This document shows positions 3-4,480 of a DNA stretch of 64,000 nt, one piece after another. Under the pieces are notes generated by a model. That model was given only the letters and a program-made list of their open reading frames with translations, had not been told where the DNA came from and did no database searches. The stretch is from Rhodospirillales bacterium (GTDB lineage Bacteria; Pseudomonadota; Alphaproteobacteria; UBA828). Both the position numbers and the translations under genes were made by a program. Location of the stretch: positions 1 to 64,000 of the forward strand of contig JAPPMY010000056.1 of the NCBI GenBank assembly GCA_028818855.1, given 5' to 3'. Position 1 is the stretch's first letter. The number at the start of each line of letters is the position of its first letter.

Positions 3-260
3 AAGGCGGTGCTGATCCTCCTGCTGGCCTATCTCGCGAGCCCCGTCGACCTGATCCCCGACGTGATCCCCGTGCTCGGGATGCTTGATGATCTCGCGGT
101 GGCTGCGGTTGCGCTCTGGCTCGCCTATCGCCTCACGCCCCGCCACGTCATGGAGGAATGCCGGGCCAAGGCGAGCGAGGCGGCCTCAGGGAAGGAAGGC
201 TGGGTCTCGAAGCTTTGGCGCATGATCGCGGGGGATGGCCGCCATCATCCAAGACAGTGA
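3..260 (+). CDS. DUF1232/YkvA-family small membrane protein (5' partial at window edge)
   Basis: Frame open to left edge; SPVDLIPDVIPVLGMLDDLAV is the typical DUF1232 motif. Confidence 0.8.
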   Translation, partial: KAVLILLLAYLASPVDLIPDVIPVLGMLDDLAVAAVALWLAYRLTPRHVMEECRAKASEAASGKEGWVSKLWRMIAGDGRHHPRQ

Positions 261-334: not shown

Positions 335-1144
335 TTACCCCGCTGATCCAAAATCAGCAGGATCAGCTTGCGGGCAATTTTGAACTTCAAAGTGTTTGCT
401 ACTCAAGCCGCTGTCTCGGACGACGTCTTTATTGAGAAATACGCCCTTCGGGTGGAGTCTCACCGCGAAGAACATCTTCTCTCCGGAAACAAATATTTCC
501 CCATTTTCCCCCTCAACCAAGTTGAATTTCGTTGAAACTTTAGATATGACTTGACTTATGATTTCTGCAGATATGTCTTCCTTATATTCAACTTTGTATT
601 CCAGGTCGCCTTCTATTGCCGCTCTTGTCTGGCAAACAAACTCTCCGTCCATGATACGTTCAGTCACTTCATCTCCACAGGACTTGTCCTGGAGAGCGGC
701 CATCTTTATTTCTCGTAGTTTGGCGTCTGATATTAGTAAAACTCGAGGATTTTTGATTTCAGAAGAGAACTCCTTTAGGACACTTTTGTTTCCTTCTGTT
801 GTAAAGAAACTCTTGATGATGCCCTCTATACTCAGTTTTGCATCTTGATACTCGCTGATCTCAGTATGGGGAACCGGTGATTCCTCGGCTGCAGCCATTA
901 TTACTTCTCGGTCGACATCGCAGGTCGGGTGAAGCATCACCCGCCCATCGTCCGTAAATTTGACGGAGTTGATTGTGCCCGGAAGGTGAAGCGCAGTGGG
1001 TGGGACAATCGAATAATAGCCAATGCTAGCGGTCTTTTGAGTGACCGGATCCGGCTCATCCTCACTGTGGAGGAAGTATCCGACCCCCGCGGCTATCACC
1101 ACCATAGCTATCAGCAGACCGCGGTAATGCTCCTTCCTGAACAT
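335..1144 (-). CDS. Hypothetical protein with N-terminal transmembrane anchor
   Basis: 269-aa ORF; LLIAMVVIAAGVGYFL anchor; AT-richer than neighbours; no family recognised. Confidence 0.6.
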   Translation of the reverse strand: MFRKEHYRGLLIAMVVIAAGVGYFLHSEDEPDPVTQKTASIGYYSIVPPTALHLPGTINSVKFTDDGRVMLHPTCDVDREVIMAAAEESPVPHTEISEYQDAKLSIEGIIKSFFTTEGNKSVLKEFSSEIKNPRVLLISDAKLREIKMAALQDKSCGDEVTERIMDGEFVCQTRAAIEGDLEYKVEYKEDISAEIISQVISKVSTKFNLVEGENGEIFVSGEKMFFAVRLHPKGVFLNKDVVRDSGLSSKHFEVQNCPQADPADFGSAG

Positions 1145-1218: not shown

Positions 1219-1347
1219 TTAACAACAGAACTGACCGTTATCGCCGCACGCTACGTAGCCTTGGGGACAAGCGAGGACAGCGCTCGGTGCCCACGTGGCC
1301 CCCGCAATTGCCGCTGTCAGAAGCGCTATTGCGAGCCAAGCTCTCAT
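1219..1347 (-). CDS. Small exported Cys-rich peptide (42 aa), not in supplied ORF track
   Basis: Hand translation: MRAWLAIALLTAAIAGATWAPSAVLACPQGYVACGDNGQFCC*; AGGAGG 5 nt upstream of ATG; signal-peptide-like N-terminus. Confidence 0.6.
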   Translation of the reverse strand: MRAWLAIALLTAAIAGATWAPSAVLACPQGYVACGDNGQFCC

Positions 1348-1393
1348 GTCAGCCTCCTACACAATCTCATGCCGCATGGATGAAATGTCTTAT

Positions 1394-1658: not shown

Positions 1659-2087
1659 ATGCGACCGAATATCCCCGAAGAGACCGGCATTCAGCTCGAT
1701 CAGGGCCGGGCCTCGACCGATGACTTCATCACGCGCACCTATGTGCTGCCGCTGCTCTCCGACCCGGAGACGCGGGCGCGGCTGATCGAAGAGCACCGCA
1801 ACAACCCGGTCGGCAAGCCCGGCAAGGCGGGCAAGGCCGGCGTCGGCCACAGCCCCGATCTCATCACGGTGATCGACAAGCTGCGGCGCGCGCCGATGAC
1901 CGGCAAGTACGTGCGGATCTGCACCAGGCCCCACGAGGAATACCGCATCGGCATCACCTCCGGCGTGCGCGGGGAGCCGGTCAAGATCCTGGAGGACGAG
2001 GCGTATCCGAGCGAGGACGCGTGCGAGCACGCGATCTTCGTAAAGCGCGTGCATGATCTGCTCGCGCTCTACGGCTATGGCTCGTAG
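1659..2087 (+). CDS. dmfA1: N,N-dimethylformamidase small (alpha) subunit-like
   Basis: EEHRNNPVG...GKYVRICTRPHEEYRIGITS...EDACEHAIFVKRVHDL resembles the DMFase alpha subunit as recalled; directly precedes the large subunit; good SD GGGAGGAAAGG. Confidence 0.75.
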   Translation: MRPNIPEETGIQLDQGRASTDDFITRTYVLPLLSDPETRARLIEEHRNNPVGKPGKAGKAGVGHSPDLITVIDKLRRAPMTGKYVRICTRPHEEYRIGITSGVRGEPVKILEDEAYPSEDACEHAIFVKRVHDLLALYGYGS

Positions 2088-2131: not shown

Positions 2132-4480
2132 ATGCTGCGGATCACCGGATACAGCGACTGCTACTCGATCCGTCCGGGCGATGACATCACGTTCTATGTG
2201 AACTCCGAGAAGGGCGAAGACTACGAGGCCAAGCTCGTCCGCCTGATACACGGCGACACCAACCCCGACGGGCCGGGCTACAAGGAAGAAGAGATCGACG
2301 CGCCGTTCGACGGCAACCACACGGGGCGCAACCAGAAGATCCACGGCGGCTCCTACGTGGTCGTGCCGCACGACGAGCGCATGTCCGTCTCGAGCTTCAC
2401 CATCCAGGCATTCATCTTCCCGACGACGCCGACCAAGGGCCGCCAGGGCATCCTGACCAAGTGGGTGAACGACACCGGCTACGGGCTCTTCGTCGACGAC
2501 GACGGCAGCCTCGCGTTCTGCATCGGCGACGGCAACCACGTGCACAAGATCTCGAGCGGCAAGCCGCTGCTGCGGAAGGTCTGGTACCTTGCGGCCGCCT
2601 CCTACGATGCGGACACCGGCGAGATTCGCCTCTACCAGGAGCCGGTGGTGACGTCCGCCAACGGCGGCCTCGGCATGGCGCTGCTGCATCCGGCTGAGGA
2701 GACGACGAACCAGGTTTCCGGCAGCTCCGATGTCGCGCCCGGCGCCAACGACGCGCCTTTCCTGATGGCGGCCTCGACCCGGGTCTCGGATTCCGGCCGC
2801 TCCATCTGCGGCGCCCACTACAAGGAGGCGCTGACGCCGGTGGCGCTGCCGGAGCAGTGCGATACCTACAACGGCAAGATCGACCGCCCCCGGCTCACCG
2901 CCGTAGCGCTCGGCAAGCACGAGATCGATGCGCTCGCCCGCGGCTTCAAGGGCTGCCCGGCCGATCTGCGGCGCGTCGTGGTCGGCGCCTGGGACTTCCA
3001 GGCCAACATCACGAAGAACATCGCCTCCACCTACATCGTCGACACCTCGCCCAACGTGCTGAACGGCCACGCGATCAACCTGCCGGCCCGCGGCATGACC
3101 GGCTACAACTGGACGGCGGACGAGATCGTCTACCACCACGCGCCGGAGGAATACGGCGCGATCCACTTCCACGACGACGACATCGACGACGCCAGGTGGG
3201 ACGCGGACTTCTCCTTCACCGCGCCGGACGGGCTGAAGAGCGGCTTCTATGCCGCGCGGCTCCGCATCGGCGGCGAGGAATCGTCGGCGACGGAGGACTA
3301 CATCCCCTTCGTCGTGCGCCCGCCCAAGGATCAGCCGTCGGCGCAAGTCGCGGTCATCATCCCGACCAACAGCTACCTCGCCTACTCCAACGACAACCTG
3401 GCGACCAACTCGGTGGTGGCGCAGCTTCTCGCCGGCAAGGTGCCGCTCATGCAGGCCTCCGACCTCTACCTCAACGAGCACCGGGAGTACGGGCTCTCCA
3501 CCTATTCGCTGCACTCGGACGGCAGCGGCGTCTGCTATTCGTCGCGGCTCCGCCCGATCCTCAACATGCGGCCCAAGTACCGGCACTGGCTCTCGCCCTC
3601 GCTCTGGCAGCTCAACGGCGACCTGCACCTCACCGACTGGCTGGAGGCCGTGGGCTTCGACTACGACCTGCACACCGACGAGGACCTGGACCGCGAGGGC
3701 GTGGCGCTGCTGAACCAGTACCGCGTCGTGCTCACGGGCTCGCATCCGGAGTATTCGTCCGAAGCGATGATCGACGCCTACGAGGCCTACCAGCACCAGG
3801 GCGGGCGCTGGCTCTACCTCGGCGCCGACGGGTTCTACTGGTGCAGCCAGTACCACCCGGACAACGGCAACATCATCGAGGTCCGCAAGGGCGAAGCGGG
3901 GACGCGCGCCTGGACCGCCAACCCCGGCGAGTACAACAACGCCTTCGACGGCAAGTACGGCGGCATGTGGCGGGCGCGGGGGCGCATCCCGAGCAAGGTC
4001 TGCGGCCTCACCTTCACGGCCTACGGCTTCGACGTGTCCTCCTACTACCGGCGCGAGCCCGACAGCTTCCGCACCGAGTGCGAGTGGATCTTCGAGGGCA
4101 TCGGCGATGACGAGATCATCGGCGACTTCGGGCTGGTGGGCGGCGGCGCCGCGGGGCTGGAGCTCGACCGCTACGACCTCGAGTTCGGCACGCCGCACAA
4201 GGGCTATCTGCTCGCGCGCTCCGAGGGCCACACCGACTTGATGCTCCAGGTCAACGAGGAGATCCACTTCGCCTGCCGCGGCTACTACGGCGGCGGCCAC
4301 GAGAACCCGCAGGTCCGGGCCGACATGATCTATTACAAGACGCCCAACGACGGGGCGGTGTTCGGGCCCGGCTCGCTGGTTTGGTGCGGCAGCCTTTCGC
4401 ACAACGACTACGACAACAACGTCTCCAAGATCATGAAGAACGTGATCGACGGCTTCCTCAAGGACGGCCCGCTGCCGTAA
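2132..4480 (+). CDS. dmfA2: N,N-dimethylformamidase large (beta) subunit-like
   Basis: 782 aa; LRITGYSDCYSIRPGDDITFYVNSE start, concanavalin-like insert, C-terminal domain typical of DMFase beta. Confidence 0.85.
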   Translation: MLRITGYSDCYSIRPGDDITFYVNSEKGEDYEAKLVRLIHGDTNPDGPGYKEEEIDAPFDGNHTGRNQKIHGGSYVVVPHDERMSVSSFTIQAFIFPTTPTKGRQGILTKWVNDTGYGLFVDDDGSLAFCIGDGNHVHKISSGKPLLRKVWYLAAASYDADTGEIRLYQEPVVTSANGGLGMALLHPAEETTNQVSGSSDVAPGANDAPFLMAASTRVSDSGRSICGAHYKEALTPVALPEQCDTYNGKIDRPRLTAVALGKHEIDALARGFKGCPADLRRVVVGAWDFQANITKNIASTYIVDTSPNVLNGHAINLPARGMTGYNWTADEIVYHHAPEEYGAIHFHDDDIDDARWDADFSFTAPDGLKSGFYAARLRIGGEESSATEDYIPFVVRPPKDQPSAQVAVIIPTNSYLAYSNDNLATNSVVAQLLAGKVPLMQASDLYLNEHREYGLSTYSLHSDGSGVCYSSRLRPILNMRPKYRHWLSPSLWQLNGDLHLTDWLEAVGFDYDLHTDEDLDREGVALLNQYRVVLTGSHPEYSSEAMIDAYEAYQHQGGRWLYLGADGFYWCSQYHPDNGNIIEVRKGEAGTRAWTANPGEYNNAFDGKYGGMWRARGRIPSKVCGLTFTAYGFDVSSYYRREPDSFRTECEWIFEGIGDDEIIGDFGLVGGGAAGLELDRYDLEFGTPHKGYLLARSEGHTDLMLQVNEEIHFACRGYYGGGHENPQVRADMIYYKTPNDGAVFGPGSLVWCGSLSHNDYDNNVSKIMKNVIDGFLKDGPLP

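Follow-up and report, generated by a model that had tools for sequence, protein, structure and literature searches.

Does a 42-codon reading frame upstream of a gene for a 269-residue protein encode an exported, cysteine-rich peptide, and if so, what might the two products do together? The question concerns the following features of the window, the 64-kb stretch of DNA analyzed here:

3..260, plus strand: DUF1232 gene, the left flank of the insert, outside the module
335..1144, minus strand: gene for the 269-residue partner (p269), with an N-terminal membrane anchor and a predicted exported domain carrying C75, C156, C171, and C257
1158..1186, minus strand: inverted repeat GGCTACGC...GCGTAGCC between the two genes
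1219..1347, minus strand: gene for the 42-residue, predicted exported Cys-rich peptide, stop codon included (from translation and orthologs)
1222..1269, minus strand: predicted mature peptide CPQGYVACGDNGQFCC, of the pattern C-x6-C-x6-CC (from conservation and pN/pS)
1270..1347, minus strand: predicted signal peptide, residues 1–26, MRAWLAIALLTAAIAGATWAPSAVLA (by visual inspection: R2, a hydrophobic core, and a terminal V-L-A)
1353..1358, minus strand: Shine–Dalgarno sequence AGGAGG, kept in the congeneric genomes G002 and G007
1659..2087, plus strand: 142-residue gene before a dimethylformamidase-like gene, the right flank, outside the module

The reading frame and its conservation

The minus-strand translation of positions 1219–1347 on which the original prediction was built is exact, as are its coordinates and four cysteines. 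The AGGAGG placed 5 nt before the ATG is present at 1353–1358, and the 74-bp gap to the 269-residue frame (335–1144) on the same strand is correct. The product reads MRAWLAIALLTAAIAGATWAPSAVLA followed by CPQGYVACGDNGQFCC, with the predicted cut site between them. A structure model of the 42-mer contains a helix at residues 3–26, and the mature part comprises 16 residues, with no His in the genus of the window.

Orthologs of the 42-mer were found in two of 60 related genomes, G002 (93% identity, E 8.5e-23) and G007 (62%, E 7.1e-15), both congeneric, at the same location as in the window and with invariant neighbor order and strand. Failure of the reading frame or cysteines to persist in close relatives had been named as grounds for rejecting the gene; both are kept in these genomes, and the four cysteines and the segments CPQGYV, CG, NG, and FCC are invariant across the three sequences. 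Weak peptide matches in distant genomes (E 0.003–1) were left out of the evidence. Between the window and G007, the mature part shows 7 synonymous differences over 9 sites and 5 nonsynonymous differences over 39 sites (pN/pS 0.165), and pN/pS over all 42 codons is 0.36. Values of 0.12–0.17 for the mature part within the window group point to selection, and every peptide subtype encountered in the wider family is under purifying selection in this part (pN/pS 0.14–0.26).

A C-C-CC motif near the end of an ORF occurs once in the six frames of the 64-kb window, and in approximately 180 kb of control loci it was found only in copies of this gene. A chance ORF is ruled out by the orthologs, the zero motif background, and the purifying selection, and the 42-residue frame is confirmed on these sequence grounds as real.

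The 42-mer has no match in Pfam at E ≤ 1, and neither it nor p269 is meaningfully matched in Pfam or NCBIfam. A PDB sequence search returned nothing, the PADLOC models of anti-phage defense gave nothing better than E 0.035, and the 42-mer was absent from the plasmid records searched. In the open-licence literature, no paper with the motif letters was found, nor anything otherwise relevant. As neither protein is represented in the curated libraries searched, the peptide has probably been missed in most annotations.

The gene pair as an insert and as a wider family

The 42-mer and p269 co-occur in exactly the same three of 21 genomes of the family. In G001, G005, and G006 the site is empty, with a short spacer and nothing else between the DUF1232 gene and the dimethylformamidase small gene. 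This co-occurrence and the empty sites indicate that the pair was gained or lost as a unit, and on this comparison it is an accessory insert. The assembly to which the window belongs has another contig (G000:C73, L064) with a DUF1232–dimethylformamidase locus lacking the insert; it is likely that this represents a second strain or a paralog, the contamination estimate for the assembly being 6.9%. To the right of the insert, positions 2132–4480 encode a dimethylformamidase beta-subunit-like protein with a Laminin_G_3 domain (PF20254, E 2e-93), and the conserved 142-residue gene preceding it has no Pfam match.

The two genes of the insert have diverged very differently. Relative to the window copy, p269 is 44% identical in G002 and 38% in G007, against 93% for the G002 peptide, and it is much more diverged than the flanking genes. 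The pS values between the window and G002 are 0.06 for the 42-mer, 0.58 for p269, and 0.22 for the dimethylformamidase-like gene. The low value for the 42-mer relative to p269 and the flank marks the peptide gene and its ribosome site as an isolated stretch of high identity, which may be a tract of recombination. The inverted repeat at 1158–1186 recurs in G002 and G007, with one double change from T-A to C-G; in the window copy, the minimum-energy fold of the gap is a different one. The repeat is possibly a processing or attenuation hairpin.

Profile searches with p269 recovered 39 loci in four families of Alphaproteobacteria. A p269 profile reached G389, in another alphaproteobacterial family (E 1.6e-7), in which the peptide MRIVLAASLALFTVLAVATAAYACPQGYAACGPHYCCPR lies directly upstream of p269 and overlaps it by ATGA. 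A broader profile reached G579 (E 3.8e-23), with MRAIIIFRILLTILAATSVVTSASACPAGYRVCGGACCPGR directly upstream. Among 309 relatives of G579 searched, 34 genomes contain 35 p269 loci; the motif ORF was found upstream in all 30 loci first examined (28 by script, two by reading) and in four of the remaining five. Together with the window, G002, G007, and G389, a short ORF of the form C-x(3-6)-C-G-x(2-5)-CC thus lies directly upstream, on the same strand, at 38 of 39 loci, with intergenic distances between +77 and about −64 bp. These loci do not count as independent observations: a single genus (g270, with genomes of 7–11 Mb) supplies 33 of the 34 genomes. The exception, G1035, belongs to yet another family and has an exported two-Cys peptide, MLNRFAAFSLGLTVLLWGSSVVLACPDNAKLVNGFCVPK, in the same position. 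What began as one hand-translated ORF is therefore a recurring gene pair, in which the proposed recurrence of the Cys tail beside homologs of the 335–1144 protein holds. The constancy of order and strand lends strong support to the suggested two-gene operon, with co-transcription probable on that basis.

Within g270, three peptide subtypes occupy different sites, the x6/x6 type adjoining metF–metH, and overall the modules occur in several unrelated genomic neighborhoods, showing that the pair travels as a unit. No third gene recurs beside the module across different sites. Two modules are damaged: in G777 the peptide gene is intact and matches the consensus of its type at 97.7% identity, next to a p269 that lacks approximately residues 33–202 through an internal deletion, and G873 has frameshifts in the module.

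The partner protein and its cysteines

The description of the larger protein as membrane-anchored suits the window copy; its two congeneric orthologs are lipoprotein-like (VAGC, LAGC). The lipobox Cys of these orthologs (L040:5205-5981 and L041:5183-5953) is missing in the window p269, where only the membrane helix is kept. A structure model of p269 is poor (pLDDT 40). A match of the window p269 to PHROG 29327 (E 4e-4) was dismissed, as it covers residues 1–32, the anchor alone; no p269 was found in phage records.

C75 and C156 are invariant in all 42 p269 proteins. C171 and one C-terminal Cys are present in all 36 intact partners of four-Cys peptides, whereas the five relatives in which no peptide was detected (from Sinorhizobium, Rhizobium, and Chondrinema plasmids) all have Tyr or Ser at position 171 and lack the C-terminal Cys. 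The column of the C-terminal Cys also varies with the peptide, corresponding to window residue 257 in 21/21 x6/x6 modules and to residue 234 in the 15/15 others. In G1035 (L126:6691-7554, minus strand), p269 has Ser at the C171 position, a Cys two residues earlier, and the C-terminal Cys. The p269 tree and the peptide subtypes agree with the minimum possible number of label changes, which indicates co-inheritance of peptide and p269. By the same token, the cysteine correlation, which tracks deep clades, may stem from just one or two ancestral events; it is a lead for physical contact, and is not proof of it. The strict pairing, and a cysteine pattern that shifts with the peptide, make binding between the peptide and p269 directly testable.

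Export, function, and comparison with known systems

The best reading of the 42-mer is a disulfide peptide that is exported by Sec, cleaved by signal peptidase I, and paired with an envelope-anchored protein of its own. A basic n-region, a hydrophobic core, and small residues at −3/−1 are seen by eye in all subtypes, and the frame, the cysteines, and the small-residue pattern before the first Cys are kept across 38 loci, which supports the proposal of an exported Cys-rich peptide. Of the two fates originally offered, cleavage by signal peptidase is favored. The other, a tiny lipoprotein in which the first Cys is lipidated, draws on the V-L-A that precedes this residue in the window (VLAC), but can hardly be credited because relatives lack a lipobox here: they read AHA-C, AYA-C, ASA-C, VFA-C, and AAAD-C, the −3 Leu is not conserved, and in the largest clade an acidic residue directly precedes the Cys (ADC/AEC). 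A lipobox of the pattern [LVI][ASTVI][GAS]C at the end of the signal peptide is not conserved: VLAC in the window stands against HAC, YAC, SAC, FAC, and ADC/AEC in the relatives.

In the mechanism we propose, Sec would export the translated 42-mer and signal peptidase I would cleave it behind Ala26; periplasmic oxidation would then give the 16-residue mature part a compact form with two disulfides. p269, a product of the same transcript, would be tethered to the envelope through a membrane helix or a lipid, with its periplasmic domain acting as a dedicated partner and with C171 and the C-terminal Cys adapted to the peptide. The pair would then form one accessory module in which the peptide is a ligand or small subunit of anchored p269, a reading that we hold to be somewhat more probable than its negation. 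Against it, identity between the window and G002 is far higher for the peptide (93%) than for p269 (44%), G1035 blurs the cysteine correlation, and the intact peptide of G777 beside a broken p269 may act alone or be decaying. An accessory role for such a complex in envelope conflict or signaling is a guess.

Other functions can be envisaged for the same two genes. That the peptide damages the envelopes of competitors and p269 confers immunity, as in a bacteriocin-like pair, would suit the order of a small exported peptide followed by an anchored protein, the patchy accessory distribution with empty sites, the fast divergence of the partner, and the context of the peptide-less p269 relatives, which are neighbors of exported GH25 muramidases and caspases or carry a fused papain-like protease. 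We nevertheless consider it unlikely: a self-toxic peptide should forbid the state of G777, in which the peptide gene is intact without a working p269; within a clade the peptide hardly varies and p269 drifts, whereas toxin–immunity pairs usually co-diversify; and dedicated export or processing genes were not found traveling with the module. The broken p269 of G777 and the frameshifts of G873 lead us to prefer the ligand or subunit role. A periplasmic thiol or metal function, in which the peptide binds metal or exchanges thiols and p269 holds, delivers, or recycles it, would account for four closely spaced cysteines and for two additional conserved cysteines in p269 where the peptide is present. 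It is rather improbable, given that no gene recurs beside the module across sites and that the mature peptide of the window genus lacks His. More improbable still is a leader ORF whose translation merely controls that of p269, the peptide itself being without a role. The start of p269 does lie inside the small ORF in some modules, with an overlap of 4 bases in G389 and of some 40 bases in the x6/x6 type of g270, but a leader peptide requires neither a signal sequence nor cysteines, and purifying selection maintains both even in modules with non-overlapping genes (the window trio, x6/x3, and x3/x3).

No known kind of system was matched by sequence, library, or literature, although the function may still prove familiar. 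Two-gene bacteriocin/immunity operons with small Cys-containing bacteriocins resemble the module in having a small exported disulfide peptide, a membrane-anchored protein next to it, and an accessory distribution. The module differs in its generic Sec-type signal, in having no transporter gene or library match, and in combining a conserved peptide with a fast-evolving partner, which is broken in one genome. Entericidins EcnA and EcnB are exported products of Proteobacteria of about 40 residues, and are lipoproteins with a lipobox Cys; the 42-mer is similar in size and predicted export, but has no Pfam match, and its relatives have no lipobox. LptM is a small periplasmic Cys lipoprotein that aids disulfide formation in LptD. 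The combination of a small exported Cys protein with an envelope protein is alike, but LptM is a lipoprotein; the NCBIfam LptM model does not match the peptide, and scores 14.1 bits, below its cut-off of 27.7, against the signal segment of a p269 relative that lacks the peptide.

A further comparison is with homologs of the p269 domain itself (E 4e-8 to 1e-4), found in Sinorhizobium and Rhizobium plasmid lipoproteins and in a Chondrinema litorale fusion. These share C75 and C156 with p269, but lack C171, the C-terminal Cys, and a detected upstream Cys-rich peptide. On plasmids of S. terangae, S. medicae, and R. lusitanum, the p269-like lipoproteins are encoded near exported GH25 muramidases, and in C. 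litorale a papain-like C70 peptidase forms one protein with the domain. An exported fusion of a caspase domain (PF00656) to a GH25 muramidase is encoded close to the p269-like lipoprotein of the S. terangae plasmid (L074:5723-7654), and a similar two-part protein seems to be present at L078:2064-3887. The location of p269 relatives beside, or fused to, hydrolases points to p269 as the probable constant component, with an exchangeable neighbor, hydrolase or peptide. It is tempting to extend this to a mobile, so far undescribed family of alphaproteobacterial two-gene modules of the envelope, a tentative view to which we give less than even weight. In these, a C-C-CC peptide of roughly 10–20 residues would be held by, or disulfide-joined to, an anchored protein dedicated to it, with extra cysteines that evolved alongside the peptide, and the peptide would take the place of the muramidases and proteases found beside the peptide-less relatives of p269.
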